Shown here: piece by piece, positions 31,369 to 61,086 of the stretch
Layout of the letters: each line of letters starts with the position of its first letter
How positions within the stretch are numbered: the stretch's first letter is position 1
Assembly (NCBI RefSeq): GCF_000403135.1
Contig: NZ_AQPN01000116.1
Coordinates: 1 to 64,000 of the forward strand
Length of the DNA: 64,000 nucleotides
Direction: 5' to 3'
DNA from: Arcticibacter svalbardensis MN12-7
GTDB lineage: Bacteria > Bacteroidota > Bacteroidia > Sphingobacteriales > Sphingobacteriaceae
The notes under the pieces: model-generated
Databases searched by the model: none
Told to the model about the DNA's origin: nothing
What the model saw: only the letters and a program-made list of their open reading frames with translations
Position numbers and translations under genes: made by a program

Positions 31369-31427
31369 TTAGAATATTTTATAAAAATTTCATTGCAAAT
31401 GAAATGATAAATTAATAGAATTGCAAA

Positions 31428-34336: not shown

Positions 34337-34346
34337 ATATAGCATG

Positions 34347-34386
34347 CATAAAAAAGTCAATCCCTATATGGAACTGCCTTTTTTAT
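34347..34386 (+). terminator. Probable terminator after the second M1-type gene
   Basis: ATAAAAAAGTCAATCC faces GGAACTGCCTTTTTTAT with a few mismatches and ends in a T run. Pairing is imperfect, so confidence is moderate. Confidence 0.4.
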
Positions 34387-34432
34387 TCATATTACCGAAT
34401 TACATGAACCGTACAAACCGTAATTCCCTACA

Positions 34433-35197
34433 CTATGATTCCTCTTTAGTATAGATAGCCTTACCGTAATAATTTTGAAGATTCGCTTCATAAGATTCAC
34501 TTATTTGCTCATCAGGCTGATATTCAGGACTATTCTTAACATGATCTACCGTACAGTTGACCATCACTGTTGAGGTATACCAATTTATATCTTTTACCCA
34601 TTTAGGCGATATCAAAACCTTTTTCCCAGGAAACCAACTTCCCGTATCAACAACCATAAATACAAGGTTCCAGTTGCTGTCATCAAATATAAAGTCCACA
34701 ACATCACCTATTTCCCCATCACTTGCCTTAATGTTATACCCCTTTACGTTAGCTGTACTACGTAAGTTCGAATCATATTCTGAGGTATCATTAACGGGAA
34801 CCTCATTTTCTTTTTCTATTTCCTCTCCCATTGATATAGGGAAAGACGAAGCCATTCCCGAAAGTCCCATCCCACCCCAGTAACTTCCCCAGGTATAATG
34901 TTTATATAATTCAATTTCATGCTGACGGGATACTGGTTTTTCGGTATCAGTGGTTGGACTATTTTTTACCTGATCCATCGTTAGATTCACAAAAAATGTT
35001 TCAAGCTCCCAATTTGGTGTTATTACTGCCTCAGGTGAAATTAATACCTTTCTTCCCGAAAGCCAATTCCCTGTATCCACAATTAAATAACGGATCGTCC
35101 AGGTTTTATCGTCAAAATAAAACTCCTTAACCGTTCCTATTTCTCCATCAGTAGCACCAATGGTAAAACCTATTAAACTTTTAACGCTGCGTTTCAT
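34433..35197 (-). CDS. Protein with two PRC-barrel domains
   Basis: A 254-residue protein made of two homologous PRC-barrel halves. The first (about 5-75) reads LIGFTIGATDGEIGTVKEFY, VDTGNWLSGRKVLISPEAV. The second (about 150-225) reads NVKGYNIKASDGEIGDVVDF, VDTGSWFPGKKVLISPKWV. Each is followed by a similar VNLTMDQVKNSP or VNCTVDHVKNSP tail. No signal peptide. PRC barrels bind other proteins or RNA, as in RimM or photosynthetic reaction centres; stand-alone doubles like this are often linked to stress. A single gene. Confidence 0.88.
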   Translation of the reverse strand: MKRSVKSLIGFTIGATDGEIGTVKEFYFDDKTWTIRYLIVDTGNWLSGRKVLISPEAVITPNWELETFFVNLTMDQVKNSPTTDTEKPVSRQHEIELYKHYTWGSYWGGMGLSGMASSFPISMGEEIEKENEVPVNDTSEYDSNLRSTANVKGYNIKASDGEIGDVVDFIFDDSNWNLVFMVVDTGSWFPGKKVLISPKWVKDINWYTSTVMVNCTVDHVKNSPEYQPDEQISESYEANLQNYYGKAIYTKEES

Positions 35198-35506
35198 GTA
35201 TTCTATTTATTAAATGATCTAATGCATATTGAAAATTCTGGCATCATTTAAAAAAAAGAAAAATTTAATTGCTTTAGTAGCAATAAATACTTTCCATAAA
35301 CATTCAGAATCTACAATAAGTTCAAATAGATAACACAGGAAGACAAAAATGGTTCATTCAAATAAGATAAAAGCAATTATAAAATTAAAACTAAAAGCTT
35401 TTTACACACTGTAGTTGGTAAAATTCTTATTATAGCGCAGGAAATTATGATATTTTTTTTTATTTAATTAAATCGTTTCAATAGGAAAATTCAAAAAATC
35501 ACAAAA
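35198..35506. other. Gene-free gap, nothing recognised
   Basis: AT-rich stretch between the PRC-barrel gene and the SulP terminator. No coding frame, strong hairpin or consensus promoter is visible. Confidence 0.5.
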
Positions 35507-35543
35507 TGAAAAAGCGGCATGACTCAAATGATAGCCATACCGC
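35507..35543 (-). terminator. Intrinsic terminator of the SulP gene
   Basis: On the minus strand GCGGTATG pairs with CATGCCGC (one G-T wobble) and is followed by a T run. It lies about 100 bases beyond the SulP stop. Confidence 0.65.
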
Positions 35544-35646
35544 AAAGTGGTAATAGTAATATTGTAATTATCAGAAATTTATCAAAACTTGAAAGCATTG
35601 AAAAACAAATTCAATCTTTTTAAAACCGATAATCAACGGAACAGGA

Positions 35647-37191
35647 TTATATCATTTTGTCAGTAGCAACATGATAGGTAGGATCTTCTAGAATGCTCAC
35701 CTCTATAACTTGATCTGCATTCTTAAGCAAGATTCGGCAATCATCACTCAAATGCCTTAAATGAAGCTTCTTATTTATTTTTCGATACCGCTCGGTCAGC
35801 TTGTTTAAAGCTTCAATTCCCGACATATCAGCAACCCTACTTTCTTTAAAATCGATAACCACCTCATCAGGATCGCCCAAAACATCAAATTTTTCATTAA
35901 AAGCGGTAACAGAACCAAAAAATAAGGGACCATAGATCTCATAATGCTTAATTCCACTATCATCCACATACTTTCTTGCCCTGATGCGCTTGGCACTTTC
36001 CCATGCAAAAACAAGGGAGGAAATAATCACACCTATCAATACCGCTAAGGCTAGATTATGCAATAACACGGTTATTCCAGCCACTACTACGATAACAAAA
36101 ATATCATGTCTTGGCATTTTACCAACCAGCTTAAAGCTCGCCCACTCAAATGTTCCTATGGAAACCATAATCATCACACCTGTTAGAGCAGCCATAGGCA
36201 TTCTTTCTATCAGAGGTGCGCCGAACATAATAAAAACCAGCAACATCACTGCCGCAACAATTCCAGATAAACGAGCTCTGGCACCAGAGGAAATATTGAT
36301 CAAACTTTGACCAATCATTGCACATCCACCCATGCCGAAGAACAATCCGCTTAATATGTTCGCACTACCCTGTGCTACACATTCTTTATTGCCACTTCCA
36401 CGCGTTTCGGTAATCTCATCAATCAAGTTTAGGGTAAGCAAACTCTCAATTAAACCAACCCCTGCCATGATAGCCGCATAAGGGAAAATAATTTTCAATG
36501 TTTCCAAACTATAAGGAACAGCAGGAATATGAAACGGAGGGAAACCACCACTTATAGAAGCAATATCCCCTACCGTTTTGGTGTCGATATTAAAACCAAC
36601 TACGATTAAAAATACAACAACTATTGCCACCAGTGAAGCTGGCACTGCTTTGGTGAAACGGGGCAAAATAGCTATTATCGCAATAGTTAAGGCTACCAAT
36701 CCCAGCATCAGGTATAGAGCCTGACCACTTAACCAAACTTGCTCCCCGTTCACTACAGTTTTAAATTGAACCAGCTGTGATAAAAATATAATGATTGCTA
36801 GACCATTTACAAAGCCAAACATCACAGGATGAGGAACCAGACGGATTAATTTTCCGAGTTTTAAAAAGCCCACTATCATTTGAATCAGCCCTGCCATTAC
36901 AACAGTAGCAAATACATATTCAATCCCATGTGTTTTCGCTAATGCTACAATTACTACTGCAATTGCACCTGTAGCACCTGAAATCATTCCCGGACGGCCA
37001 CCTATTATTGCAGTAACCAATCCCATCATGAATGCTGCATATAAACCAACCAAGGGAGGCAGACCTGCTATTATAGAAAAAGCGACAGCCTCTGGTATTA
37101 AAGCCAATGCAACGGTAAGTCCCGCAAGTATTTCAATTTTATAATCAATCTTCTGTTTTATGTCAAACAGGCGCAAGTATACTCTTCTCAT
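35647..37191 (-). CDS. SulP family anion transporter with STAS domain
   Basis: A 514-residue inner-membrane transporter. The transmembrane part (about 1-400) starts with DYKIEILAGLTVALALIPEA and has the SulP motif AFMMGLVTAIIGGRPGMISG; VNGLAIIIFLSQLVQF follows. A cytoplasmic STAS domain (about 415-514) contains EVVIDFKESRVADMSGIEAL. Family substrates include sulfate, bicarbonate and other anions; no neighbour points to one. No carbonic anhydrase or sulfate-assimilation gene is adjacent. A consensus promoter lies about 112 bases upstream and a terminator follows. Confidence 0.93.
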   Translation of the reverse strand: MRRVYLRLFDIKQKIDYKIEILAGLTVALALIPEAVAFSIIAGLPPLVGLYAAFMMGLVTAIIGGRPGMISGATGAIAVVIVALAKTHGIEYVFATVVMAGLIQMIVGFLKLGKLIRLVPHPVMFGFVNGLAIIIFLSQLVQFKTVVNGEQVWLSGQALYLMLGLVALTIAIIAILPRFTKAVPASLVAIVVVFLIVVGFNIDTKTVGDIASISGGFPPFHIPAVPYSLETLKIIFPYAAIMAGVGLIESLLTLNLIDEITETRGSGNKECVAQGSANILSGLFFGMGGCAMIGQSLINISSGARARLSGIVAAVMLLVFIMFGAPLIERMPMAALTGVMIMVSIGTFEWASFKLVGKMPRHDIFVIVVVAGITVLLHNLALAVLIGVIISSLVFAWESAKRIRARKYVDDSGIKHYEIYGPLFFGSVTAFNEKFDVLGDPDEVVIDFKESRVADMSGIEALNKLTERYRKINKKLHLRHLSDDCRILLKNADQVIEVSILEDPTYHVATDKMI

Positions 37192-37309
37192 ATAGTAAAT
37201 GAATTTGAAATGGTAAAAGGAAAAAACTAGTTTTGAAAAATTAACAGAACTTATGGAAAGTTCAAGGTGGTGTAACAGGACTCTTGTAAATACTTTTCTT
37301 CATTAATTG

Positions 37310-37339
37310 CAAAGTTAGAAATTTTTAATTTAATTTCAA
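37310..37339 (-). promoter_or_regulatory. Promoter for the SulP gene
   Basis: On the minus strand TTG (37337-37339), a 19-base spacer and TAACTTTG (37310-37317) match the Bacteroidota consensus. The leader would be about 110 bases. The rest of the 37192-37542 gap shows nothing I can name. Confidence 0.7.
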
Positions 37340-37542
37340 TCAAAGCATGTAATACAAAAAAGATCGAACCATTAAGTCCTTCGTTTTAATTGTTATTCTT
37401 TAATCCCACTTCAGCCTATTGATATCCCCATTCCCTTTTATATGATTTACAAATTTGTGTCTTTAGCAACATAAACTTTTGTAAACATAATTAATGAACA
37501 TAATTAAATTATAAATCGAAATTTGTTCATCCTTTTTTCTGC

Positions 37543-38318
37543 ATGTATTTAGTGCTTTGCAGTAATCAGGTGGCATCAGCACCATATCCTGATATTCCTG
37601 AAGTTGTTCATAAAGCAACGAATGCTATGATGGAAGCAGCACGTGTGCAATCTGATATTGCCTGGTTGAAAGCAGTTCCAATCATCGAAAAAGAAGCAAA
37701 AGAAGGCAAACCTTATGTTCCATTTGCTGGACGTCCAACCGATCTTCTTCAATCAGAAATTGTTGCATTTTTTCCAGATGCTGAAGGCGGTGGCACTTAC
37801 TCTTTTGGTGGTCGCGGTGAAACTTATGTTGGCCGCAGGGATGATGCTATGGGAGGAAATCCAATAGGAAATATCATGATCGACCATGTTTCCGCAAGCT
37901 GGGGACTGGATGAAAATATGTCTATGTACCACCATATGTATAAAGACAGTACCGTTAAGGCAGAGATTAAACTGGGAACAGTTAACATCACCATTCAAAA
38001 CTCGATCTGCTATGAAGCCCTTGATACCTTGGAACCATGCGTTCGTAAGTACACTGGGTGGAGAAAATTGTGCCTTCATACGTAATTTATGGGCTGATAA
38101 TGCTGGATGTATTCCTTCAATCGGATGGAATGGTATTTTCAAATTTACCAATAACGTTGTATTTAACTGGGTAAACCGCTCAACAGATTACCTGCAACGA
38201 ACTTTAAAATTCGTAGATTTACCTGTTGATTCATAAAAAGGAGGAATACATTAATGACATTAGTCAGGTTGGTAGATACCCGGTTTATAAGGGATCTCCT
38301 TATGTAGATGCAGATCAT
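37543..38318 (+). pseudogene. Pectate lyase gene remnant (internal deletion plus frameshifts)
   Basis: The first frame (37543-38085) has a family-like N-terminus with KAVPIIEKEAKEGKPYVPF and EIVAFFPDAEGGGTYSFGGR. It then jumps straight to RRDDAMGGNPIGNIMIDHVS and ASWGLDENMSMYHHMY, omitting about 100 residues that normally lie between the GGRG motif and this region. Near 38030 the reading switches frame to GGENCAFIRNLWADNAG and NGIFKFTNNVVFNWVNRSTD. It then stops, and a third stretch EEYINDISQVGRYPVYKGSP is visible up to about 38318. Three frames and one large deletion make it nonfunctional. Confidence 0.82.
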
Positions 38319-38350
38319 TTTTTAGTACTCCTACTAATTCTTAAACCTAG

Positions 38351-40969
38351 ATGAGTAAATTTCTCTTTTTTACATTCGTCATGCTGATTTATGGCTTCAG
38401 TACCTCAGCACAATCACAACGTTCCGTACATGGAGTAGTGCAGGATTCCTTAGGGATAACATTACCCGGATCATCCGTAAAACTAATTTCTAAATTAGAT
38501 TCTATTTATACCGCAACTGATCAGAACGGAAAATTTTCATTTCCCACAATCAAATCATCCCAATTTACGCTTACCGTAAGCTCCATCAGCTTTAAAACGT
38601 TTATCCGGGAATACACAACAGACAAGAAAAAGAACACGGTTACACTTCCCATTATCCATTTGAAAGATTCTTTCAACCAATTGAACGAGGTCGTGATCAA
38701 TGTCATCACTCCTGTGGTTATCAAGGAAGATACAGTACAATATGACGCCCGTGCATATCCTGTACGCGAAGGAGATGCTGTAGATGAAATAGTAAAACGC
38801 CTCCCCGGAATGGAAGTAGACAAAGATGGAAACGTGAAAGCACAAGGCGAACCCGTTACACGAATCCGTTTAAACGGAAAGGACTTTTTTGGTGATGAAG
38901 CCTCTGCGGCACTTCAAAACCTGCCTGCAGATATTGTAAAAAATATCCAATTAATAGATGACTATGGAGAAGAGGCAAACATCTCCGGAATTAAGAGTGG
39001 TGAGCCGCAAAAGATCATCAATATCAACACAAAAGAAGACAAAAGGAATGGTTATTTTGCTCGCGCAGAAGCGGGTATGGGTTCCGCAGACCGGTATAAT
39101 GGCCGGATCAGAGCTAACCGTTTCAAGGAAGATCAGCAGGTTTCCTTAGATGTAACCAATAATAACACATCCCGAAGATCAAAAGGGACAACAGAAAATA
39201 CAGCGGCAATGCTGAATTATCGTGATAACTGGGGAACGAAAGTAGAAAGTTACGGAAGCTACCGTTTTAGAAAGGATGACAATAATACATTAGAACAGAA
39301 AGTAACTGAAAGTGCATTTGAGGATTATACCCGCTATGAGTATGATAATAGTAACAACAATAGCAGAAATTTTGATCACGGATTATTCTGGAACCTGGAA
39401 TACAGGCCCGATAGCGCCAATTACTTCAAACTAAAGCCCCGTGCCTCCTATCAATTGGGAAGTACATCAAGTACAGGATCAACCATTACAGAACTTTTAT
39501 CAGCTAGATCATTGCGACAAAGAAATTCTGCAGCCTCATCCACTTCCTCATCCTTTGGCACCGAACTATATTACAACCACAAGTTTAGTAAAAAGGGTAG
39601 AAACCTGAGTATAAGCACAGAGATCAACAGCGCACATGGAGATAATTCCAGCGACCTCAAAAATGACTATACCAATACCGATTCAGTTGGGAATACTACT
39701 CTGGAAAAACAATATCAATATCGCAACAATAATAACAAGAATACCAATGCCCGCTTAAGAATGGCCTATATTGAACCATTCAACGATAGATCAATGATTG
39801 AGATCAACTATCAATGGAACCGCAGCTCTACTAAAACTGTCAGAAATACCATGGATCTGGATCCCGTAACTGCAGAACAGGTTTTAAATCAAAATCTAAG
39901 TAATGATTATAATTACCAGTTTATCACCAACCGTGCAGGACTGAATTTTCGCCATATTGATACCAAACTAAACTATTTTGCCGGAGTTGCTGTGATGCCT
40001 TCTGTGCTAAAAGGCCAGGATTTAACCAGGGATAACGAAACTTTAAAAAAGACATTGAACTGGATCCCAAGTGCCCGTCTTGTTTATAAATTCTCCAAAA
40101 AACAATCCTTTACCGCCCGCTATCATGGTCGAAGCAATCAACCCGGATTCCGTCAGCTGCAGCCCATTACAGATAATTCAAACATACAGAATGTGCTTGT
40201 CGGAAACCCGGATCTTAAACCTGAGTTTACAAATAGTTTAGGCATGGAGTATAAACAAACAGATTGGACGTCCGGATTTGTCATGAACTCACGTGTAGAC
40301 TTCAACCAGACGAATAATAAAATTGTAACAACTAAAGTAATTATTCCCGATAGTATCAAGCAGATTTCTTCCTATATCAATACCGACGGTTTCTACAATG
40401 CCCGGGCGGAATACTCATTTGCCAAGCCCTTCTCGAACAGGCAATTTACGCTGACTTATTCTGGCGGATCAAACTTCAGCAATAACATTGCTTTCACTAA
40501 CAATGACAGGATCACAGGTAAGAACCTCCAGTTAAACCAGGGACTGAAGTTCAGGTTAGACATTCAGGATAAAATGAATGCCGAAATAAACACCTCCTTT
40601 TCCTACAATCAAACCCGTTATAGTTCCGGATCGCTCTCAGACAGAGAAACCCGCACCTATAGCATGGGATTAGCAGGAAGAACCTATTTCCATAAGGATC
40701 TAACACTTGGGTATAACTTTTCCAAAGATTACAATACCGGGTTTAATGCTAATGCCACCAACCCTACCCTTTTAAATTTATACCTCGATTATCGTTTTTT
40801 AAAAGGCAATGCAGCTAATGTCCGTTTTCAAGGATACGACATCCTGAACCAGAATACCGCAATATCACGTGATGTTTTCGACAATGTAATAGTGGACTCT
40901 CAGAGCAACAGGCTTGCGCGGTACTTTATGCTTACGTTCCAGTATCGGTTACAACACTTCGGAAGCTAA
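38351..40969 (+). CDS. TonB-dependent receptor-like outer-membrane beta-barrel protein
   Basis: An 872-residue exported protein (signal ending STSAQ). The N-terminal carboxypeptidase-regulatory-like domain (about 25-110) includes GVVQDSLGITLPGSSVKL. A plug-like region has DAVDEIVKRLPGMEVDKDGN, RIRLNGKDFFGDEAS and LPADIVKNIQLIDDYGEEAN. The rest is a long barrel of aromatic beta strands ending YFMLTFQYRLQHFGS. This type is common in Bacteroidota without a SusD partner and its cargo is unknown. It starts 33 bases after the pectate lyase remnant but need not be related. No disruption is visible. Confidence 0.88.
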   Translation: MSKFLFFTFVMLIYGFSTSAQSQRSVHGVVQDSLGITLPGSSVKLISKLDSIYTATDQNGKFSFPTIKSSQFTLTVSSISFKTFIREYTTDKKKNTVTLPIIHLKDSFNQLNEVVINVITPVVIKEDTVQYDARAYPVREGDAVDEIVKRLPGMEVDKDGNVKAQGEPVTRIRLNGKDFFGDEASAALQNLPADIVKNIQLIDDYGEEANISGIKSGEPQKIININTKEDKRNGYFARAEAGMGSADRYNGRIRANRFKEDQQVSLDVTNNNTSRRSKGTTENTAAMLNYRDNWGTKVESYGSYRFRKDDNNTLEQKVTESAFEDYTRYEYDNSNNNSRNFDHGLFWNLEYRPDSANYFKLKPRASYQLGSTSSTGSTITELLSARSLRQRNSAASSTSSSFGTELYYNHKFSKKGRNLSISTEINSAHGDNSSDLKNDYTNTDSVGNTTLEKQYQYRNNNNKNTNARLRMAYIEPFNDRSMIEINYQWNRSSTKTVRNTMDLDPVTAEQVLNQNLSNDYNYQFITNRAGLNFRHIDTKLNYFAGVAVMPSVLKGQDLTRDNETLKKTLNWIPSARLVYKFSKKQSFTARYHGRSNQPGFRQLQPITDNSNIQNVLVGNPDLKPEFTNSLGMEYKQTDWTSGFVMNSRVDFNQTNNKIVTTKVIIPDSIKQISSYINTDGFYNARAEYSFAKPFSNRQFTLTYSGGSNFSNNIAFTNNDRITGKNLQLNQGLKFRLDIQDKMNAEINTSFSYNQTRYSSGSLSDRETRTYSMGLAGRTYFHKDLTLGYNFSKDYNTGFNANATNPTLLNLYLDYRFLKGNAANVRFQGYDILNQNTAISRDVFDNVIVDSQSNRLARYFMLTFQYRLQHFGS

Positions 40970-40996
40970 TCCCTTAATTTTCGAAATCAATTAACC

Positions 40997-41089
40997 GGTA
41001 TTCGCTTTCGTAGAATATATCCGCTTAAGAACGGAGCATCATTTAAAATGTATTATTTATATGGTATTCGCTTTCTTCAAAGCAAATAC
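40997..41089. repeat. Direct repeat and hairpin downstream of the barrel gene
   Basis: GGTATTCGCTTTC occurs at 40997-41009 and 41063-41075. The second copy begins a hairpin (GTATTCGCTTT/AAAGCAAATAC around CTTC, 41064-41089, one mismatch). It directly precedes the MITE-like element, so the whole 40970-41160 stretch looks repeat-derived. Confidence 0.5.
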
Positions 41090-41093
41090 GAAC

Positions 41094-41160
41094 TAATAAA
41101 AATCTAGGTTAAGTCCGACTTAAAAGACCCTACAGTTGGACTTATACTGGATTCTTACTG
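41094..41160. repeat. MITE-like inverted-repeat element, copy 2
   Basis: The right arm (41138-41160) reads GGACTTATACTGGATTCTTA then CTG and matches copy 1 (18443-18465) at 21 of 23 bases. The left arm (41094-41116) is more decayed, 17 of 23 to its partner. Similarity to copy 1 continues past the right arm (GCTSTCTTATTG). Confidence 0.65.
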
Positions 41161-41356
41161 CTGTCTTATTGGAATCTGTAATACAGAGATTACAGGAAAA
41201 ATAAATTTCTAGTTTTTTCTATACGCGAGTTCTTTTACTATACTTGTGCGTCAAATTAGAGCTATAAAGGTTCATGATTTGATACCTACCAATTCGAAAC
41301 AATAGACCTAATATTCAATCTTATACCCAATGGCCAGACTCCAATTATTAAAATGA

Positions 41357-41392
41357 TTTGGAATGAATATTTATATATCGTAATATTGCAAT
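41357..41392 (+). promoter_or_regulatory. ACR3 promoter with ArsR-like dyad
   Basis: TTTG (41357-41360), a 20-base spacer and TAATATTG (41381-41388) form a near-consensus promoter. A 6-4-6 dyad ATCGTA-ATAT-TGCAAT (41377-41392) overlaps the -7 box and resembles the dyad ahead of arsR (TTCGTA-TATT-TACGAA). This placement suits repression. It also shows that the gene must start at ATG 41413 and not at the ATG at 41353. Confidence 0.55.
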
Positions 41393-41412
41393 GTACAATT
41401 ATCCATTACATT

Positions 41413-42489
41413 ATGTCTGCATCAAATTGCGCACCCGCAAGTGAAAGAAAAAAGTTAAGCTTTTTAGACCGTTACCTTACCCTTTGGATTTTTATGGCTA
41501 TGGCTATTGGTGTGTCTATTGGGTTTTTTATTCCCTCCTCATCAGGCTTTATCAATTCTTTTTCCAGTGGCACAACCAATATTCCACTTGCGATAGGACT
41601 AATTTTAATGATGTATCCCCCATTAACAAAAGTAAAGTATGACAAGATGGGCGAGGTATTTAAAGATACCAAGGTATTAAGTGTATCGTTAGTCCTTAAT
41701 TGGATAGTTGGTCCATTATTGATGTTCTTTTTGGCCATCACATTTTTGAGGGACTATCCTGAATATATGGTTGGCTTAATCCTGATCGGTTTGGCACGAT
41801 GTATTGCAATGGTAGTAGTCTGGAACGAACTTGCAGAAGGAAACAGGGAATATGCAGCTGGATTGATTGCTTTGAACAGCATTTTTCAGGTCTTGTTCTA
41901 CAGCGTATTCGCCTACATCTTTATCACTATACTTCCACCCTATTTTGGTCTACAGGCATTAGACGTCAATATTACGATTGCTGAAATAGCAAAAAGTGTA
42001 GGGATTTATCTTGGAATTCCTTTCGCCATGGGTATAATCAGCAGATTTACATTGATTGCGCTGAAAGGAGAAGATTGGTTTCAAAACAAATTTATACCCT
42101 TTATTTCACCCATTACACTTGTGGCTCTGCTTTTTACCATAGTGGTGATGTTTAGTTTGAAGGGAGAATTAATCGTACAAATTCCTATGGACGTAGTAAG
42201 GATCGCCATTCCGCTTGTAGTATATTTTTCAATTATGTTTGTGCTTAGTTTCTTTGCTGGAAGATATTTTGGCGCCGATTATTCTAAGAGTGCTTCAATT
42301 GCCTTTACCGCAACAGGAAATAATTTCGAATTGGCTATAGCAGTCGCTATTGGGGTATTTGGAATTAACTCAGGACAAGCCTTTGCAGGAGTAATCGGGC
42401 CTTTGGTTGAAGTGCCAGCTTTGATTGCGTTAGTGAATCTGGCTTTCTGGTTTAGAAAGAAATATTTTAAAACTGCGCCTATCGTCTAA
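41413..42489 (+). CDS. ACR3-type arsenite efflux transporter
   Basis: About 358 residues with ten predicted helices ([20 protein letters not shown] start). The helix-4 Cys is in [20 protein letters not shown], and the ACR3 Glu motif is in [20 protein letters not shown]. Family knowledge: ACR3 exports As(III), and sometimes Sb(III), across the inner membrane with proton exchange. The start is set by the promoter just upstream. A broken phosphoesterase gene separates it from the arsR unit. Confidence 0.93.
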
Positions 42490-42641: not shown

Positions 42642-43378
42642 ATGAAAATTGCTCTTTTCTCTGATATACATGCTAATATTCTTGCCTTTGAAGCCATGTT
42701 GCTGGATATGGACAGCCAAAAGCCTGATACTGCTTATTGCCTTGGTGATTTAGTAGGTTATAATATATGGCCCAATGAAGTTATTGCAGAGATCCGCAGA
42801 CGTGGAATAGCTACATTGATGGGTAATCACGATGAGAAGGTTGAAAAGATAACCACAACAGCACAGAGTCTGCAGGAGCAAGGAAAAGACTATGCGTATC
42901 ACCTGATAGATCAGGCAGGCAGAACATATTTAAAACCCTTCCTGCACATATAAGATTAGAATACAGGTTAAGCAATGGTCAGATAAATCTGGTATTTACT
43001 CATGGAAGTACCAGAAAGATAGATGAATATGTTTTGGAGGATACAGATGAAAATGATGTCCTGGATATGATGCAGGAAGCAAATGCAGATTTACTTTTCG
43101 TTGGTCATTCTCACAAACCTTATCACCGGATCCTGAAAACTACTGATGGAAGGTTCAAACATATCATTAATCTTGGCTCGGTAGGAAAACCAAAAGATAA
43201 AGATCAAAGGGCTTGTTATGTTTTGTTAACAATTCATGCAAACAGTTCGGTATGGGAAAAAGATAGCATCCACGTTGAATTTAGAAGAATTGAATACGAT
43301 GTGGAAACAGCTGCAAAGGCCATCGAATCCAGTCCTCTACCTAATGAATTTGCTAAAGCCCTAAGGCTGGCAAAATAA
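42642..43378 (+). pseudogene. Calcineurin-like phosphoesterase gene with single-base frameshift
   Basis: The first frame (42642-42953) carries metal motifs ALFSDIHANILAFEAML, LGDLVGYN and LMGNHDEKV. It goes off frame after GRTYLK. Adding one base in the A run at 42932-42935 restores LPAHIRLEYRLSNGQINLVF, THGSTRKIDEYVLED and the second half (43034-43378) with VGHSHKPYHRIL and INLGSVGKPKDKDQ. The repaired protein is about 245 residues, the normal length of the family, which hydrolyses phosphoesters. Lesion position suggests slippage or a sequencing error in a short homopolymer. Confidence 0.85.
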
Positions 43379-43429: not shown

Positions 43430-43445
43430 TTCGTATATTTACGAA
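43430..43445 (+). promoter_or_regulatory. ArsR operator candidate at arsR
   Basis: TTCGTA-TATT-TACGAA is a perfect 6-4-6 dyad 15 bases before the arsR start codon and overlaps a -7-like TATATTTA. ArsR-family repressors bind such dyads, so autoregulation is likely. Confidence 0.6.
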
Positions 43446-43460: not shown

Positions 43461-43766
43461 ATGCCCATAATTAGTAAGTCCGATTATTTCACTAAAGAGC
43501 AAGAGCAAACAGCAAGGTTTGCTAAAGCACTGGGGCATCCTATAAGAATAGCCATTTTACAATTGTTAGATTCGAAATCTTGTTGTTATCATGGTGATAT
43601 GGTAGAAGAACTTCCAATTGCAAAGTCAACTTTGTCTCAGCACCTGAAAGAACTTAAAAATGCTGGACTCATTCAAGGCAACATTACTCCTCCCACAATT
43701 AAATACTGTATTAATCACCCAAATTGGGAACTGGCTAAAAAATTATTGAACAATATATTGAAATAG
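43461..43766 (+). CDS. arsR: ArsR family metalloregulator
   Basis: A 101-residue winged-helix protein. The HTH contains FAKALGHPIRIAILQLLDSK and PIAKSTLSQHLKELKNAGLI. CC in SKSCCYHGD sits just before the recognition helices, a plausible metalloid-binding Cys pair; a classical CVCDL is absent, so the metal site differs from E. coli ArsR. It heads the operon of a CxxC redox protein, permease, ArsF- and ArsG-like genes and has a perfect dyad in its own promoter. Confidence 0.85.
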   Translation: MPIISKSDYFTKEQEQTARFAKALGHPIRIAILQLLDSKSCCYHGDMVEELPIAKSTLSQHLKELKNAGLIQGNITPPTIKYCINHPNWELAKKLLNNILK

Positions 43767-43785
43767 ATTTTTTTTGATTGCCATG

Positions 43786-43823
43786 TTCGTCGTTTTGCGA
43801 ACTACGAACATTGCCTAACTTTA
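43786..43823 (+). promoter_or_regulatory. Second ArsR-like dyad and promoter before the CxxC protein
   Basis: TTCGTC-GTTT-TGCGAA (43786-43801) repeats the 6-4-6 layout, with a further TTCGT/ACGAA pair out to 43809. TTTG (43794-43797), 18 bases and TAACTTTA (43816-43823) make a plausible promoter, so the downstream genes may be transcribed separately from arsR but under the same repressor. Confidence 0.5.
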
Positions 43824-43837
43824 TAAATTATTAGACT

Positions 43838-44074
43838 ATGAAACAGATAAAAGTATTGGGTCCGGGTTGTGCAAAATGCAAAACCACCTACAACAATGTG
43901 CTAGAAGCTTTGAAGCAAACAAGTATTGAAGCGGAAGTAATTAAGATTGACGACATTGAAGAAATGATAAAGTACAATGTACTTACCACACCTGTCTTGC
44001 TAATTGATGATAAAATCGTTGTAAAAGGTCGGGTAGCTGAAGTCAATGAAATAAAAAACATATTACTACAATAA
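43838..44074 (+). CDS. Small CxxC redox protein, ArsE/MTH895-like thioredoxin fold
   Basis: A 78-residue protein. The active site is GCAKC in IKVLGPGCAKCKTTYNNV; the TTPVLLIDDKIVVKGRV segment with cis-Pro is typical of thioredoxin-like small proteins of the TM0996/MTH895 type. In arsEFG-type operons the first protein has this form and works with ArsF in reducing nitroaromatic arsenicals; I infer that role from context. It lies between arsR and an ArsP-like permease. Confidence 0.75.
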   Translation: MKQIKVLGPGCAKCKTTYNNVLEALKQTSIEAEVIKIDDIEEMIKYNVLTTPVLLIDDKIVVKGRVAEVNEIKNILLQ

Positions 44075-44128
44075 ACTGAACCTGAAAGCAATTTTTAATA
44101 GAAATGAAATTCATTACCCTTATTAATC

Positions 44129-45106
44129 ATGTTTGACTGGTTACAAGACTTTGCAGACTGGCTTATTTATGCAGTCCTTGGCATATCGGCTCAAAGCCAT
44201 TTGGGCGAGGCTTTAGACTTCTTTGTCCTTGACACGATCAAGATCTTCATTCTGTTGATATTCATCACCCTATTCATGGGCATTATCAATTCTTATTTCC
44301 CCATTGAAAAGGTCAGAGATTTTTTAACTAAACGGAAATGGTATGGCCTGGATTATTTTGTGGCCTCATTATTTGGAACAGTCACACCATTTTGTTCTTG
44401 CTCTTCCGTACCCTTATTTATCGGATTTGTAAAAGGCGGTATTCCCCTTGGAGTAACTTTAGCTTTTCTTATTTCTTCGCCATTGGTTGACGCTGTTACC
44501 GTTGCCATGTTTATTGGCATGTTCGGTTGGAAGACTACCCTGATTTATGTGGTAAGTGGCATTATTTTATCCATGATTGCAGGGTTTGTACTTGGTAAGA
44601 TGAAACTGGAATCCCTGATGACTGATTGGGTGAAAGAATTATTAAAAAACAAACAGATAGCCGATAAAGAACAGGATGAAACGCACTTAAGCTTTATCCA
44701 GCGGTTTCCAGCCATTATCAAAGATTCATTAGGGATTGTTAAAGGCGTTTCTTTGTACATAGTTGGTGGTATTGCAATTGGAGGCCTAATGCACGGTTTT
44801 ATTCCCACTGGATTCTTCGAAGCTTATATCAGTAAAGAAAATCCTTTTGCCGTACCGCTTGCAGTAATTATAGGCGTACCGATGTACAGTAATACAGCTG
44901 CAATACTACCTATCATGCAGGTTTTGGTAGCAAAGGGCATTCCATTGGGAACAGCTATTGCTTTTTCCATGGCAGTTGTGGGGCTATCCATTCCTGAAGG
45001 ACTTTTACTAAAAAAAGTGATGTCAACTAAAATGCTTCTCATCTTCTTTGCGGTCGTAACTATTTGTATTATCATCTCAGGCTATTTATTCAATATCATT
45101 CTATAA
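44129..45106 (+). CDS. Permease of the ArsP/DUF318 family
   Basis: A 325-residue protein with about eight to ten helices. The Cys-rich motif TPFCSCSSVPLFIGF is the ArsP/DUF318 hallmark. Next come SSPLVDAVTVAMF and a second half-repeat GVPMYSNTAAILPIMQVLVA. Family knowledge: ArsP exports trivalent organoarsenicals such as methylarsenite and roxarsone(III), but other DUF318 proteins have no known substrate. The operon context (ArsR, ArsE-, ArsF- and ArsG-like) supports organoarsenical efflux. Confidence 0.85.
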   Translation: MFDWLQDFADWLIYAVLGISAQSHLGEALDFFVLDTIKIFILLIFITLFMGIINSYFPIEKVRDFLTKRKWYGLDYFVASLFGTVTPFCSCSSVPLFIGFVKGGIPLGVTLAFLISSPLVDAVTVAMFIGMFGWKTTLIYVVSGIILSMIAGFVLGKMKLESLMTDWVKELLKNKQIADKEQDETHLSFIQRFPAIIKDSLGIVKGVSLYIVGGIAIGGLMHGFIPTGFFEAYISKENPFAVPLAVIIGVPMYSNTAAILPIMQVLVAKGIPLGTAIAFSMAVVGLSIPEGLLLKKVMSTKMLLIFFAVVTICIIISGYLFNIIL

Positions 45107-45125
45107 ACCTTTAGAAATTACTATT

Positions 45126-45536
45126 ATGAAGAATTTAAGTGTTACCATGTTTGCTATAGTTGCATTTTTGCTTGTTTCTTATACGATAAAAGCACAACAA
45201 AAAAAACAACCAGTTGCTGTAAAAAAAGCAACTATCGAAGTGATTCAGTTTCATTCAGAGTATCGTTGTATGACCTGTCATAAAATTGAAGACCTCACTA
45301 AGGCCACCTTGGCCAGTAGTTTTAAGACCATCCCTTTCAGGTTAATCAATGTAAGTGACAAGAGCAATGCAAAAATGGCGAATCAGTTTGAGGCTGCTGG
45401 TACTGCCTTATTTTTATACAATCCATCAACAGGTAAAAAACAAGACCTGACCAGTTTTGCCTTTATGAAAGCTGGAAATAAAAAAGCATTTGAAGCAGAA
45501 CTTAAAAAATATATAACGGAATTCATTAAAGGTTAA
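45126..45536 (+). CDS. ArsF-like exported protein (nitrophenyl-compound reductase family)
   Basis: A 136-residue protein with signal peptide (ends about TIKAQ). The mature domain begins VEVIQFHSEYRC-like residues (IEVIQFHSEYRCMTCHKIED) with one CxxC (CMTC), then FRLINVSDKSNAKM and GTALFLYNPSTGKKQDL. This agrees with the ArsF family, which pairs with ArsE to reduce aromatic nitro groups on arsenicals. CMTCH looks like a heme motif but there is no cytochrome context. It is 2 bases from the ArsG-like gene. Confidence 0.75.
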   Translation: MKNLSVTMFAIVAFLLVSYTIKAQQKKQPVAVKKATIEVIQFHSEYRCMTCHKIEDLTKATLASSFKTIPFRLINVSDKSNAKMANQFEAAGTALFLYNPSTGKKQDLTSFAFMKAGNKKAFEAELKKYITEFIKG

Positions 45537-45538
45537 TA

Positions 45539-46261
45539 ATGGATTGGTTAAATAACCTGGCACAAAATGGGGACACGCCTATATTTGCCGCTTTTGGCTT
45601 GGGCTTGTTAACGGCAATCAGTCCTTGCCCTTTAGCAACCAATATTACTGCGACCGCATATATCGCTAAAACCATTACCAGTAAACGCAAAATGCTGCTT
45701 AGCGGATTATTATACACCTTGGGTAGAATGTTTACCTACACCATATTAGGAGCTTTAATTTATTTTGGAGCCAGTAAGTTTCAGGTAGCAAAATTATTCC
45801 AAGGTAATGCAGAAAAGTTTATTGGTCCGGTCATGATATTGATCGGGCTGATTATGCTGGATGTCATTACACTAAATTTTCTATCAAAGGGCAATTTAAC
45901 GCAAAAACTCTCCGATAAATTTAAAGACAAAGGGATGCTAGGGTCTTTTCTACTAGGGTTGGTATTTGCTTTGGCTTTCTGTCCCTATAGCGGTGCTTTA
46001 TTTTTCGCCATGCTTATCCCAATGACTTTATCCGCTTCAGCAGGTATGGCATTACCCGTTGTATTTTCAATAGGCACAGGCTTGCCTGTTATTTTCTTTG
46101 CTTACGTAATTGCTTTTAGCATCGGAAAATTGGGCAATTATTTTAAAGCCATACAAAAAGCAGAAAAAGTGATGCGTATGGGGGCAGGTATCACATTTTT
46201 AATAGTAGGCCTGTATTACCTGAATATTTATCTTAAAATAATTAATTTAAGCCCATACTAG
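45539..46261 (+). CDS. ArsG-like efflux permease (DsbD/CcdA superfamily)
   Basis: A 240-residue protein with six helices. It has FAAFGLGLLTAISPCPLATN and LAFCPYSGALFFAMLIPM, the paired Pro-Cys motifs of the CcdA/DsbD-like fold. ArsG exports aromatic aminobenzyl arsenicals in known arsEFG systems. Position after ArsF-like supports this. The alternative is a thiol-disulfide electron carrier, which the fold would also allow. Confidence 0.8.
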   Translation: MDWLNNLAQNGDTPIFAAFGLGLLTAISPCPLATNITATAYIAKTITSKRKMLLSGLLYTLGRMFTYTILGALIYFGASKFQVAKLFQGNAEKFIGPVMILIGLIMLDVITLNFLSKGNLTQKLSDKFKDKGMLGSFLLGLVFALAFCPYSGALFFAMLIPMTLSASAGMALPVVFSIGTGLPVIFFAYVIAFSIGKLGNYFKAIQKAEKVMRMGAGITFLIVGLYYLNIYLKIINLSPY

Positions 46262-46364: not shown

Positions 46365-47162
46365 CTAAAGAAAAATTTCCCTTCCTGTCTGATTATAAAA
46401 GACATGTCCCTTACATTGATTTTTTAAGATGACATAGCTGTCTATGCCCGTACAATGGCATACGAAGATGTCATCAATATTCATTTCATTAAAGTAAGCG
46501 GATATGTTTTCTGCATCAGCCGTTTTCGCATTTTTTAAATGTAGGCCACCTATAACTCTTTGCACTGGAAGGTGAAATAAATCAGACGCACTTTTAATGA
46601 TATTGGAAATTCCCCGATGTGAACAACTACTTACAATAGTTAGCTTTCCATTGTTGATTAGAGTTAAGAATAATTCATCCTCGAAAGTGTCGGGGTACCT
46701 GCCCTGCTCATCTACAATGCTCATATCATGAAAATGAACGTCATGAGGATAATGGATTTTGATTTCAGGAACTATAAATAATCCTTCATCCAGCTCGGTT
46801 AAGTGATCGATATAATGAACTCTTTCTGATGATGAAAGTAGTGCAGCATCTATCCCTATATATCTTTCTCCGTGATACTTCTTCAATAGCGCTTCTCTTT
46901 TCAGGTAAATTGGGGCATGGTCATTTTCCTGAAGGAAGTACTTAAGTCCTCCGGTGTGGTCATAGTGGCCATGACTTAAAACCAAGGCATCAACCTCTGT
47001 GATAGAGATCCCCAGTTGCTTTGCATTTTTTAAAAAAACAGCAGTCTGACCACAGTCAAAAAGGATCTTTTTATTTTCTGATTCAATATAGAAAGATAAA
47101 CCATGTTCGGCAAGTAGACCTGATCTGTCGGTCATATTTTCAATAAGCGTAACTATTCTCAT
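46365..47162 (-). CDS. MBL-fold metallo-hydrolase
   Basis: A 265-residue cytosolic enzyme. The metal motif is LSHGHYDHTGGLKYF (HxHxDH), preceded by KKILFDCGQT and followed by SSCSHRGISNIIKSA, GGLHL and FVCHCTGIDSY. This is the subgroup related to archaeal dihydropterin ribofuranosyl aminobenzene phosphate synthase-like proteins. It is divergent from the DUF134-NifX genes across 83 bases and shares their two-operator control region. Similar MBL proteins travel with DUF134/NifX-like genes in anaerobes, so it is probably part of the same system. Confidence 0.85.
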   Translation of the reverse strand: MRIVTLIENMTDRSGLLAEHGLSFYIESENKKILFDCGQTAVFLKNAKQLGISITEVDALVLSHGHYDHTGGLKYFLQENDHAPIYLKREALLKKYHGERYIGIDAALLSSSERVHYIDHLTELDEGLFIVPEIKIHYPHDVHFHDMSIVDEQGRYPDTFEDELFLTLINNGKLTIVSSCSHRGISNIIKSASDLFHLPVQRVIGGLHLKNAKTADAENISAYFNEMNIDDIFVCHCTGIDSYVILKNQCKGHVFYNQTGREIFL

Positions 47163-47173
47163 TTGTACATATT

Positions 47174-47234
47174 AATAATAATGAGCAAATGTTCAAAATA
47201 ATATTTGCATTATGAGCATTTGTTCATTATTATT
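47174..47234. promoter_or_regulatory. Divergent control region with twin palindromic operators
   Basis: An 18-base inverted repeat (47174-47191 and 47217-47234, one mismatch) holds two copies of a 14-base site: TGAGCAAATGTTCA (47183-47196) and TGAGCATTTGTTCA (47213-47226), 30 bases apart, i.e. three helical turns. Each is itself a TGARCA/TGTTCA dyad. For the DUF134 gene, TTTG (47204-47207), 20 bases and TATTATTG (47228-47235) form a promoter, and the second site lies in its spacer. The DUF134 protein is the obvious binder. Confidence 0.7.
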
Positions 47235-47245
47235 GTATAATTAAT

Positions 47246-47650
47246 ATGGCAAGGTTAAAGAAATCAAGGGTAATACAAAGGGCTCCATCATTTTTAGGTT
47301 TTAAGCCCTTCGGGGTTCAAAAACTTTCAGGTGAGGATGTGATCCTTCATCTGGAAGAATATGAATCTGTTAAACTTTGTGATTATGAAAACCTTACGCA
47401 TGAGCAGGCAGCTAAAATCATGAATGTATCGCGGCCTACTTTCTCTAGAGTGTATCAAAGCGCAAGAAATAAAATTGCAAAGGCATTTGTTGAAGCGTCA
47501 AGCATTCTTTTGGAAGGAGGAAATTCAGTAGTCGGTATCCTGTGGTATTCCTGTCCTGTGTGCGAGCTTAACTTTTCTTCTATTATAGATGAACAGCCTG
47601 TCTGCCCCTTTTGCCTTTCAGAACATGTATGTAAAGTTGACGAACAATGA
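47246..47650 (+). CDS. DUF134 family HTH/zinc-ribbon regulator
   Basis: A 134-residue protein with N-terminal RAPSFLGFKPFGVQK, the DUF134 entry motif. An HTH follows (LTHEQAAKIMNVSRPTFSRV, YQSARNKIAKAF). At the C-terminus, two CxxC pairs (SCPVCELNF and VCPFCLSEHVC) look like a zinc ribbon. DUF134 proteins are often next to NifX-like proteins and P-loop ATPases of the orange-protein system in anaerobes. Here it overlaps the first NifX-like gene by 4 bases and follows the twin operators, so it is likely an autoregulator. Confidence 0.9.
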   Translation: MARLKKSRVIQRAPSFLGFKPFGVQKLSGEDVILHLEEYESVKLCDYENLTHEQAAKIMNVSRPTFSRVYQSARNKIAKAFVEASSILLEGGNSVVGILWYSCPVCELNFSSIIDEQPVCPFCLSEHVCKVDEQ

Positions 47651-47988
47651 TTATAGGAATAGCCATTCAGGAGAATGTATTATACTCGCGGATACATAGA
47701 CAATTTGGCCGATGTCCCTGGTTTGCCATTTATGACAGCAGTTCTGATGAACTTACGTATGTAAAAAATGCGGAACAGGATAGTGTGAAAGATGCAGGAT
47801 TAAACGTTGCTTCTATGCTGATAGCAGAGGGGGTTACTAAAGTAGTGGCTGGTCGTTTTGGTATCCTGACAGCAGATTATTTAAGAGAGCAACGAGTGCA
47901 AATGATTATTCCACTGAAGGATGAAATGACACTGGAAGGTCTTCTGGAAAATATTAATCCGGCTAGAGTAAGTAAACAAAAATTATAG
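47647..47988 (+). CDS. NifX/NafY-like dinitrogenase cofactor-family protein 1
   Basis: A 113-residue protein of the dinitrogenase iron-molybdenum cofactor-binding family: MIIGIAIQENVLYSRIHRQF, GRCPWFAIYDSSSDELTYVK and VASMLIAEGVTKVVAGRFG. No nif genes are in the window, so nitrogen fixation is not implied; stand-alone members such as the orange protein bind Mo-Cu clusters. Overlaps DUF134 by ATGA and lies 2 bases before the second NifX-like gene. Confidence 0.85.
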   Translation: MIIGIAIQENVLYSRIHRQFGRCPWFAIYDSSSDELTYVKNAEQDSVKDAGLNVASMLIAEGVTKVVAGRFGILTADYLREQRVQMIIPLKDEMTLEGLLENINPARVSKQKL

Positions 47989-47990
47989 AT

Positions 47991-48380
47991 ATGAAAATAG
48001 CAGTTGCAGTTTTAGGAACTACGGTTTCTGAGCATTTTGGAAGTGCAGAATCAATCAGGATATTTAACCTGGATGCTGAGAACAATATTACAGAGACTGA
48101 AACGATACAGGGTTCAGGTGAATGTGGATGTAAATCAGGAATGGCTGGAATTTTGGCAGAGCGGGGCGTAAAGGTATTACTAGCAGGAAATATGGGTGGA
48201 GGATCACATACGCTGTTGGAGCGAAATCATATAGTAGTTTATAGGGGCTGTTCAGGCGAGGTGGCGTTAGTATTGGATAATTTCCTTAACGGTAGCTTAA
48301 CTGATCAGGGAGGTAACTGTGCTGAACATGATGATCATCATCACCACGAAGGACATGAATGTAACCATCATCATCAATGA
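47991..48380 (+). CDS. NifX-like protein 2 with His-rich metal-binding tail
   Basis: A 129-residue protein of the same fold as its neighbour (MKIAVAVLGTTVSEHFGSAE, ILAERGVKVLLAGNMGGGSH). It has an extra Cys pair (GECGCKSGM) and a tail of about 20 residues very rich in His, Asp and Glu (CAEHDDHHHHEGHECNHHH) after NGSLTDQGG. The tail resembles metal-storage tails of nickel and zinc chaperones. Overlaps the thioesterase gene by 4 bases (ATGA). Confidence 0.85.
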   Translation: MKIAVAVLGTTVSEHFGSAESIRIFNLDAENNITETETIQGSGECGCKSGMAGILAERGVKVLLAGNMGGGSHTLLERNHIVVYRGCSGEVALVLDNFLNGSLTDQGGNCAEHDDHHHHEGHECNHHHQ

Positions 48381-48790
48381 TCACTTGTATAACTAAATTG
48401 AGGGTTCAATATTGCGATACAGACCAGATGGGGTTTGCTCATCACTCTAACTATGTGAAATATTTTGAGCTGGCCAGAATGGACTTGCTGCGAAATATAG
48501 GAATTTCCTATTTCTCTATTGAAGATGCAGGTTTTATCATGCCTGTAGTGGATGTTAGGATACACTATAATAATCCTGCTTTCTTTGATGATGAACTGGT
48601 GATTGAAACACAGCTTCCTGATCCAACGGGAGCAAAAGTTGTCTTTCATTATAAAGTACACAATCAAGAAGGAAAGCTGATCTGTCAGGGAGAAGTGGCA
48701 CTTGCGTTTGCCAGTAAGGAGAGTAAAAAGGCTTGTCATCCTCCAGTTTTTTTTATGGATGCAGTTCATGGTGCTGAGGTTTCGGTTTAG
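48377..48790 (+). CDS. Acyl-CoA thioesterase, YbgC/4HBT family
   Basis: A 137-residue hot-dog-fold enzyme. The catalytic motif is QYCDTDQMGFAHHSNYVKYF (D-x-D-x-x-G-x-x-x-[HN]), with FELARMDLLR and VVDVRIHYNNPAFFDDELVI. It cleaves acyl-CoA thioesters, possibly short-chain or aromatic. It is the last gene of the DUF134-NifX unit and is translationally coupled to the His-rich protein; why a thioesterase is coupled to it is not clear. Confidence 0.88.
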   Translation: MITCITKLRVQYCDTDQMGFAHHSNYVKYFELARMDLLRNIGISYFSIEDAGFIMPVVDVRIHYNNPAFFDDELVIETQLPDPTGAKVVFHYKVHNQEGKLICQGEVALAFASKESKKACHPPVFFMDAVHGAEVSV

Positions 48791-57564: not shown

Positions 57565-58185
57565 TCAAAGGGATAAGATTTCAATCATATCCTTACAGTA
57601 GACTTTGCCTTTTGCAATGACCAGCTCCCCTTTGTCATGCATCACACGCATGGTTCGAATAACCGTTTCCACCCGTAAACCTGTCATATCTGCAATTTGC
57701 TGTCTGGTTAATTTGAGTTGAGTTCCATCCGTATAAAAGTTCTTGTTTTCGGATTTTAGATAATTTAGTAGAGTAGCAATTCGGTGTTCCGGACTATGAG
57801 AGGAAAAAGACTTAATAATTAAAAATTTAAATCGTAGTCTTTTAGCGAGCAATTTGGTAAAGGCCAAACTTATTTCACCATTTTCTTTGATCAGTTTAAG
57901 AAATTTGGATTTTGATAACCGTATCACTAAACTTTCTTCATCAGTGATGGCTGTTGCAGCATAAGTCCCATCATCAAAGATTGGAATTTCACCAAAAGAT
58001 TCTCCTGGCTCAACAAGGGTGTGAATAAATTCCTTACCATCATTATCTACATTCACCCATCTGGCTTTACCACTTACCAGTTGATGATAATAGAAACATG
58101 ACTGACCTTCAGCAAAAATCGTTTTCCCGATACCGAATTTTTTATATGTGGCTCCCCAAACCAGCAACAAGTTAATATCAATCAT
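57565..58185 (-). CDS. Crp/Fnr family transcriptional regulator
   Basis: A 206-residue protein with an N-terminal cyclic-nucleotide-type sensor barrel (FAEGQSCFYYHQLVSGKARW, FGEIPIFDDGTYAATAITDE) and a C-terminal winged HTH (LKLTRQQIADMTGLRVETVI, RTMRVMHDKGELVI). It lacks the N-terminal Cys cluster of true FNR, so it should not hold an oxygen-sensing 4Fe-4S centre; heme or ligand sensing in the NnrR/DNR style remains possible. Divergent from the nos cluster by 247 bases, so it is the probable regulator of that cluster. Confidence 0.92.
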   Translation of the reverse strand: MIDINLLLVWGATYKKFGIGKTIFAEGQSCFYYHQLVSGKARWVNVDNDGKEFIHTLVEPGESFGEIPIFDDGTYAATAITDEESLVIRLSKSKFLKLIKENGEISLAFTKLLAKRLRFKFLIIKSFSSHSPEHRIATLLNYLKSENKNFYTDGTQLKLTRQQIADMTGLRVETVIRTMRVMHDKGELVIAKGKVYCKDMIEILSL

Positions 58186-58355: not shown

Positions 58356-58402
58356 TTTATGATTCAACGCATAAAAAAACGAGAAATGACTGAGTAGTTT
58401 TG
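58356..58402 (+). promoter_or_regulatory. nos cluster promoter with a dyad at the activator position
   Basis: TAGTTTTG (58395-58402) is a full -7 match without a -33 TTG. The dyad TTTATG-N8-CATAAA (58356-58375) is centred at 58365.5, i.e. 29.5 bases before the -7 box, the same spacing as the palindrome at the RND operon. Its sequence differs from that one. A further near-palindrome CAGGCATATGTGCCTG lies at 58286-58301. Confidence 0.55.
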
Positions 58403-58432
58403 TTTACAAATCACAGATCAAATATACATCTT

Positions 58433-58930
58433 ATGAAAAAACTTATCATACTCAGCGTTTTGGTTCTTTTTATAACAATCATCGCTTCATGCGGAGGTAG
58501 TAACAATTCTGGAACTTCATCTGATTCAATTGCAAATGCAGGAGGAGCAGCTGCTAATGAAGATGGAACAGAAAACCCGTCATATGATCCTAAGAGAGGA
58601 GAAGGAAAATTTTCGAGTGTCGATTTAGGCACTTCACTTGATGCGGCCAGAGCTGAAAGCGGCGATAAAGTTTACCTCGTTAAGTGTGGTGCTTGTCATA
58701 AACTGACAGATGAAAAACTAGTTGGACCGGGATGGGCAGGTGTTACCACTCGTCATGCTCCCGAATGGATTATGAATTTTATTACAAATACGGATGCCAT
58801 GATTGATAAGGATCCTAAGGCTCAGGCTCAACTTGAATTATGTCTTGTGCGGATGCCTAATCAAAATTTATCTGATGACGATGCAAGAAACCTGCTTGAG
58901 TTTATGCGTAAAAATGATGGTGTTAAATAA
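58433..58930 (+). CDS. c-type cytochrome lipoprotein of the nos cluster
   Basis: 165 residues from ATG 58433, the start that gives a clean lipoprotein signal (LFITIIASCGGS). A Gly/Ser/Asp-rich linker precedes a class I cytochrome c domain with CGACH in VKCGACHKLTDEKLVGPGW; the Met ligand is probably in LVRMPNQNLSDDDARNLLEF. Family knowledge: cytochromes here feed electrons to NosZ or to the nos assembly proteins. First gene of the cluster, 67 bases before nosZ. Confidence 0.88.
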   Translation: MKKLIILSVLVLFITIIASCGGSNNSGTSSDSIANAGGAAANEDGTENPSYDPKRGEGKFSSVDLGTSLDAARAESGDKVYLVKCGACHKLTDEKLVGPGWAGVTTRHAPEWIMNFITNTDAMIDKDPKAQAQLELCLVRMPNQNLSDDDARNLLEFMRKNDGVK

Positions 58931-58997
58931 TTTTTCCTTTTGAATAGAAACCCAGGGCAATGATATTCATATGCTCAAATAATCCGATAAGTCAAAA

Positions 58998-61010: not shown

Positions 61011-61018
61011 CATTAAAT

Positions 61019-61076: not shown

Positions 61077-61086
61077 CGATTATGTT

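Follow-up and report, generated by a model that had tools for sequence, protein, structure and literature searches.

Among the closest described relatives of the genes considered here are those of the orange protein (ORP) complex of Desulfovibrio, for which the proteins Orp3, Orp4, Orp5, Orp8 and MrpORP have been named and whose operons have sigma54-dependent promoters (PMC6345978). The thioferrate storage protein IssA of Pyrococcus belongs to the same family and has a functional, cationic C-terminal tail (PMC6345978). Genes of this kind were found at positions 46365-48790 of a 64,000-nucleotide stretch of the Arcticibacter svalbardensis MN12-7 genome (contig NZ_AQPN01000116.1, positions 1 to 64,000), here named the window. 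They form an operon for a DUF134 protein, two NifX-like proteins (NX1 and NX2) and a YbgC-type thioesterase, next to a divergent gene for a metallo-beta-lactamase (MBL)-fold hydrolase. The sequence comparisons suggest, with a probability of about 0.68, that these genes represent a reduced version, without ATPases, of the DUF134/NifX/MinD (orange-protein-type) operon family, in which DUF134 would bind a palindromic operator and repress both its own operon and the divergent MBL gene. The kind of operon is already known; what is new here is the predicted operator and the predicted regulator function of DUF134. The genes and control elements of the locus are the following.

46365-47162, minus strand: MBL-fold hydrolase of the Tm1679 / 2p4z type, with the motif SHGHYDH, divergent from the operon; Pfam Lactamase_B, 64.4 bits (cut-off 22.7).
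47182-47195, no strand: predicted operator 1, TGAGCAAATGTTCA, the one nearer the MBL gene; perfect match to TGARCANNTGYTCA.
47205-47207, plus strand: TTG, located 8 bases ahead of operator 2 and a candidate -33 element for DUF134; among 51 sites (see below), TTG is found most often at this position.
47213-47226, no strand: predicted operator 2, TGAGCATTTGTTCA, before the DUF134 operon; perfect palindrome.
47228-47235, plus strand: TATTATTG, candidate -7 element, one mismatch to the consensus TAnnTTTG.
47246-47650, plus strand: DUF134 putative regulator, with a sigma-region-4-like helix-turn-helix (HTH) and a Cys4 knuckle; Pfam DUF134, 80.1 bits (gathering cut-off 27).
47647-47988, plus strand: NX1, NifX-like; Nitro_FeMo-Co, 47.9 bits (cut-off 26.3); 51% identity to the copy in the congener G002.
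47991-48380, plus strand: NX2, NifX-like, with CGC, GCSG and a Cys/His tail; Nitro_FeMo-Co, 65.9 bits (cut-off 26.3).
48377-48790, plus strand: YbgC/FadM-type hotdog thioesterase; TIGR00051, 91.7 bits (cut-off 68.7); 72% identical in G002.

The gene identities given in a preliminary description of this DNA were borne out, as open reading frames (ORFs) were found in the exact span and the curated models all scored above their cut-offs. The MBL protein has PDB relatives in 2p4z (E 4e-46) and 3h3e (Tm1679; E 3e-42). The active-site region of YbgC is conserved (YCDTDQM...HHSNY), with the region of the active-site Asp kept, and its score against the tol-pal YbgC model TIGR02799 was 83.9 bits, below the cut-off of 141.35. 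DUF134 and NX1 overlap by 4 bases, NX1 and NX2 are separated by 2 bases, and NX2 and YbgC again overlap by 4 bases. These spacings agree with the earlier account of five tightly packed genes, but four genes are packed on the plus strand, and the number five is reached only by counting the divergent MBL gene.

The absence of ATPase partners, also described earlier, holds at the locus and across the whole A. svalbardensis genome (G000; 4.69 Mb in 149 contigs), where no MinD/ORP-type ATPase was found. With the MinD-type ATPase from the complete operon at L087 as query, only weak partial matches were obtained in G000, G002, G552 and G705, which by length are Mrp-like (~367 amino acids) or ParA-like (~269 amino acids). 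The idea that a thioesterase is coupled instead of the ATPases is refuted by at least five Bacteroidota genomes (G658, G1062, G1115, G1142 and G1151), in which YbgC and MBL are ordinary members of ATPase-containing operons. In these the DUF134 gene comes first and NX genes come next, in many cases with DUF5320; a MinD pair, which a third MinD/Mrp-like gene accompanies in some, precedes YbgC and MBL, and some of the operons have another gene in between. The presence of YbgC and MBL in such operons suggests that the window holds a reduced form that lost its ATPases, so that its description as a unit distinct from those known is not supported. The gene families are alike in the two forms, and several of the ATPase-containing operons have the same type of palindrome or a TGAGAA variant, whereas the window lacks both the ATPases and DUF5320, and its MBL gene diverges from the operon and has a separate predicted operator.

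In comparison with the ORP complex, the window shares a NifX-fold single-domain protein (Orp8-like), the D. gigas orange protein (2wfb) being a fold match, but it lacks the Orp3/Orp4-type ATPases (paired MinD-type proteins with ferredoxin motifs) and MrpORP. NX1 and NX2 scored 22.5 and 46.6 bits against MrpORP, for which the cut-off is 450, and neither YbgC nor MBL figures in the set of five named ORP proteins. In other genomes, however, MinD-type Fe-S ATPases are encoded beside DUF134 and NifX genes. Since only the Orp8-like part is matched, the operon is not classed as an ORP complex. Its control also appears different, as a DUF134-type operator is predicted in place of the sigma54 control of the Desulfovibrio operons.

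The predicted operator, which the earlier description does not mention, is the strongest evidence that these genes form one co-regulated unit. The control region said to be shared by MBL and DUF134 is real, spanning 83 bp with two perfect palindromes inside it, and the claim of a single unit is supported by this predicted operator pair and by conservation outside one species. Two perfect TGARCANNTGYTCA sites occur in the window, against 0.03 expected by shuffling, and in the entire genome the pattern is present in three places, two of them at this locus and the third inside a gene on contig C12. In G002, TGAGCAAATGTTCA is located 33 bases before DUF134.

Up to 200 bases before 110 distinct DUF134 genes were compared with 549 upstream regions of other genes from the same loci. 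With at most one mismatch, TGARCANNTGYTCA was found in 51 of the DUF134 upstream regions and in two of the controls, while 0.15 were expected from shuffled sequences; the variant TGAGAATATTCTCA was found before four further DUF134 genes. At L018 and L173, where NX2 is located ahead of DUF134, the palindrome sits before NX2. The site falls at the start of the called ORF in L085, L090, L092 and L094, suggesting that these start codons were placed too early. When the half-site was permuted as a control, one almost identical permutation, differing only in the R position, also scored high (47); it is not independent of the original, and the 549 upstream regions are therefore the better control. A 20-base form of the palindrome, TTATGARCAWWTGYTCATWA, with one mismatch allowed, detected 22 distinct sites in 31 whole genomes, 21 of which are DUF134 promoters. 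The remaining site (L222, G1133:C530) is followed immediately by a TATATTTG box and precedes a gene for a glycine-rich DUF5320 protein; DUF5320 is a recurrent member of DUF134 operons. No TTATGARCAWWTGYTCATWA sites were found in four congeners without DUF134.

The position of the palindrome relative to the promoter was also recurrent. Of the 51 sites, 19 have a -7 box of the Bacteroidota type (TAnnTTTG) that starts one base after the palindrome, against a background of 0.003 per position, and 16 have TTG 8 bases before the palindrome. The palindrome would thus fill the spacer between the -33 and -7 elements, the placement expected of a repressor site. Related palindromes precede DUF134 outside Bacteroidota as well, in Roseburia (TTATTGACATATGTCAATAA; variant TTGACATATGTCAA) and in Treponema.

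The DUF134 model has a confident HTH that resembles sigma region 4 and the DeoR DNA-binding domain, and the Cys knuckle is kept in most members, with conserved Cys103, Cys106 and Cys120. The recognition helix reads SRPTFSR in the window. Across the family, the residue x of SRxTFxR varies together with the half-site: TGAGCA was found on both halves in 10/10 cases with Gly, TGAGAA in 4/6 with Ala, and with Thr or Ser both halves were TGAACA in 32 cases and mixed in 8, symmetric TGAGCA being absent (0/40). Since the palindrome is nearly private to DUF134 promoters, DUF134 is most likely a dedicated autorepressor of these operons. No function for DUF134/UPF0251/COG1342 was found in the open-access literature, to which the search was confined.

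The module is conserved beyond A. svalbardensis. G002 has an identical DUF134-NX1-NX2-YbgC operon in an unrelated neighbourhood, and in the distant Bacteroidota genome G705 (locus L018) it is reordered as NX2-DUF134-NX1-YbgC, so that the unit is conserved outside one species and a chance cluster is ruled out by these two copies. A profile search with PF02001 over the sampled genomes detected DUF134 in 101/395 genomes of the phylum (E <=1e-6) and, at E 1e-8, in 7/395 genomes of the class and in 80/149 relatives of G705; within the family of A. svalbardensis, full-length matches were found only in G000 and G002 among 301 genomes. A search of plasmids for the module showed no close relative. In Salinivibrio (Gammaproteobacteria) a gene for a PaaI-family thioesterase comes after DUF134-NifX, and the annotated order in Peptoclostridium is DUF134-NifX-ATPase-ATPase-MrpORP. 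A neighbourhood comparison of 64 DUF134 loci showed YbgC within 6.5 kb, always on the same strand, in eight; given about two YbgC genes per genome, the number expected by chance is put at well below one, as a rough estimate and not by a formal test. The association of DUF134 with YbgC is thus recurrent, and it is also present in the MinD operons. MBL-family genes were found near DUF134 in 6/64 loci.

Several observations weigh against the proposed operon membership and control. The site is not universal, as almost half of the DUF134 genes in the sample lack a matching palindrome nearby, notably those of one family of small genomes and those of the Draconibacterium group behind aroC. The fold matches of DUF134 have weak E-values. 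On the tree, the switch to Gly and TGAGCA is one independent event, so the association between residue and base supports direct reading without proving it; covariation was accordingly rejected as independent proof and kept as supporting evidence. G002 has no MBL relative at E 1e-15, and MBL as an obligatory member of the module was rejected. The HFGHC motif of NX2 relatives reads HFGSA in the NX2 of the window, which suggests that its chemistry may differ from that of its relatives.

In Draconibacterium and relatives (L004-L015), DUF134 starts 1-2 bases after a gene that reads as aroC (chorismate synthase), with no matching palindrome nearby. This is a different setting of the same family.

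The palindrome could be bound by another regulator, for example one of the ArsR/SmtB type such as the ArsR encoded at 43461-43766, DUF134 then having another role. TGARCANNTGYTCA resembles ArsR/SmtB operators, and arsR lies with a set of ars genes 3.5 kb away. However, the region upstream of arsR has a different palindrome and not that of the operator, which tracks DUF134 through 21 genomes; no ArsR family is among the recurrent neighbours of the 64 loci, congeners without DUF134 have no palindrome, and the operator letters vary with the recognition-helix residue of DUF134. ArsR as the owner of the operator is therefore quite unlikely. That DUF134 binds the palindrome but activates the operon is conceivable, since the sigma-region-4-like HTH is a fold used by activators too, but a protein bound across the -33/-7 spacer, where the palindrome touches the -7 box, would block RNA polymerase, and activation is considered unlikely. 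Binding of the palindrome by DUF134 with repression of the operon is thus the reading retained.

Two other alternatives concern the proteins under this control. The earlier description of the module as being without nif is correct for the locus but not for the genome, as contig C90 carries genes that read, by sequence and by PF00148 and PF02579, as nifV, ferredoxin, nifB, nifN, nifE and further NifD/K-type genes. NX1 and NX2 might then be FeMo-cofactor chaperones for that nitrogenase, in line with their Nitro_FeMo-Co family membership and the fold match to NifX of NifEN-NifX; the only PF02579 matches in the genome are NX1, NX2 and NifB. Among the family members tested, nitrogenase-type genes were otherwise found only in the congener G003, which has no DUF134 relative, and none were found in the module carriers G002 and G705, indicating that the module is independent of nif. 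The operator was not found at the C90 nif genes, the best fold matches are ORP/MTH1175-type proteins ahead of NifX, and although NifX, NafY and the C-terminal domain of NifB share the fold and Pfam family, the window genes are not encoded with nif. The nitrogenase link was rejected on the independent occurrence of the two gene sets, and the chaperone role is highly improbable. As for YbgC, it might be a passenger, such as a housekeeping thioesterase for acyl-coenzyme A (CoA) or 1,4-dihydroxy-2-naphthoyl-CoA, given that it has scores, below the cut-offs, against the MenI and tol-pal YbgC models and that a YbgC with 72% identity is present in G003, where the module is absent. Its same-strand linkage is nevertheless seen again in eight of the 64 loci and where MinD operons end, the corresponding position in Salinivibrio is occupied by another hotdog family (PaaI), and a second YbgC in G000 (C15, 39% identical), with counterparts in congeners, is a better housekeeping candidate. 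We regard the passenger explanation as possible but doubtful, and YbgC as a probable member of the operon.

The C90 nif cluster (L019, bases 22000-41500 and beyond) also carries genes resembling those of pyruvate:ferredoxin oxidoreductase and a molybdate transporter. The YbgC gene of G003 is located on C264 (L258) and stands alone, without adjoining DUF134 or NifX genes.

The His-rich tail earlier described on one NifX-like protein was confirmed in NX2, whose C-terminal tail, CAEHDDHHHHEGHECNHHHQ, contains 9 His and 2 Cys and is also rich in acidic residues. IssA is likewise a NifX/ORP-family protein with a C-terminal tail, but its tail is cationic. In the AlphaFold model of NX2 the core is confident and the tail disordered; PH0822, TM1816, MJ0327 and 2wfb are its top fold matches in the PDB, with NifX of the NifEN complex ranking lower. 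The metal-handling character proposed for the module is accordingly kept as probably metal- or metal-sulfur-related, judging by the NifX/orange-protein fold and the Cys/His-rich sequence.

Some neighbouring genes, named by sequence reading and not by profile search, point towards sulfur. TusA-, DsrE- and HdrA-like genes adjoin the module at L018, and a CoA-disulfide-reductase-like gene is among those recurring at or adjoining modules. A 393-amino-acid pyridoxal-phosphate enzyme of Cys/Met metabolism (methionine gamma-lyase-like) was found near DUF134 in 10/64 loci (e.g. L016, L086, L093, L165, L176 and L181), which hints at a sulfide or thiol link.

A possible mechanism starts, on the comparative evidence, with DUF134 binding TTATGARCAWWTGYTCATWA between the -33 and -7 elements and repressing its own operon and the divergent MBL gene. 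A metal, sulfide or redox signal, perceived through the Cys4 knuckle of DUF134 or through cluster-loaded NifX proteins, could then lift repression, a step to which we give even odds at most. With chances no better, NX1 and NX2 may, judging by their family, be small proteins of NifX/ORP fold that carry or buffer metal ions or a metal-sulfur cluster, with the Cys/His tail of NX2 supplying extra ligands. Lacking MinD-type ATPases, the version in the window would buffer or sense clusters and not load targets using ATP. YbgC and MBL could be accessory hydrolases with CoA- or thiol-linked intermediates in the associated sulfur chemistry as their substrates, a role suggested by their context that has, at best, about an equal chance of being right.

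Other gene sets are present in the window. An arsenic-type set adjoins the module at 43461-46261 (ArsR, an ArsE-like thioredoxin, an ArsP-type permease, ArsF and ArsG), and TTCGTATATTTACGAA, at 43430-43445 before arsR, is a candidate ArsR operator. A metallophosphoesterase-like protein at 42642-43378 appears to be divided between two ORFs (42642-42953 and 43034-43378), which may reflect a disrupted gene or an error in the sequence. The region 58400-63332 holds what reads as a gene set for nitrous-oxide reductase, encoding a small cytochrome-like protein, NosZ, a 351-amino-acid protein in which a membrane region seems fused to a NosL-like domain, and NosD; the gene for a Crp-type regulator is at 57565-58185.

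DUF134 genes often adjoin NifX/orange-protein-type genes, and the operator points to a function for this uncharacterised family. With moderate confidence, we favour the view that DUF134/UPF0251 proteins are widespread autorepressors, with a sigma-region-4-like HTH and a Cys4 sensor knuckle, that bind CATATG-centred palindromes whose half-site letter is read by one helix residue, and that regulate metal-sulfur (NifX/ORP) operons in response to the state of metal or sulfide. If true, the Roseburia (TTGACATATGTCAA) and Treponema palindromes would extend autorepression by DUF134 beyond Bacteroidota. The membership of YbgC and MBL turns the question of their substrates into one of metal-sulfur or thiol chemistry, and the operator gives a way to call the regulon in site-bearing genomes, as well as a handle on the signal that these operons answer.

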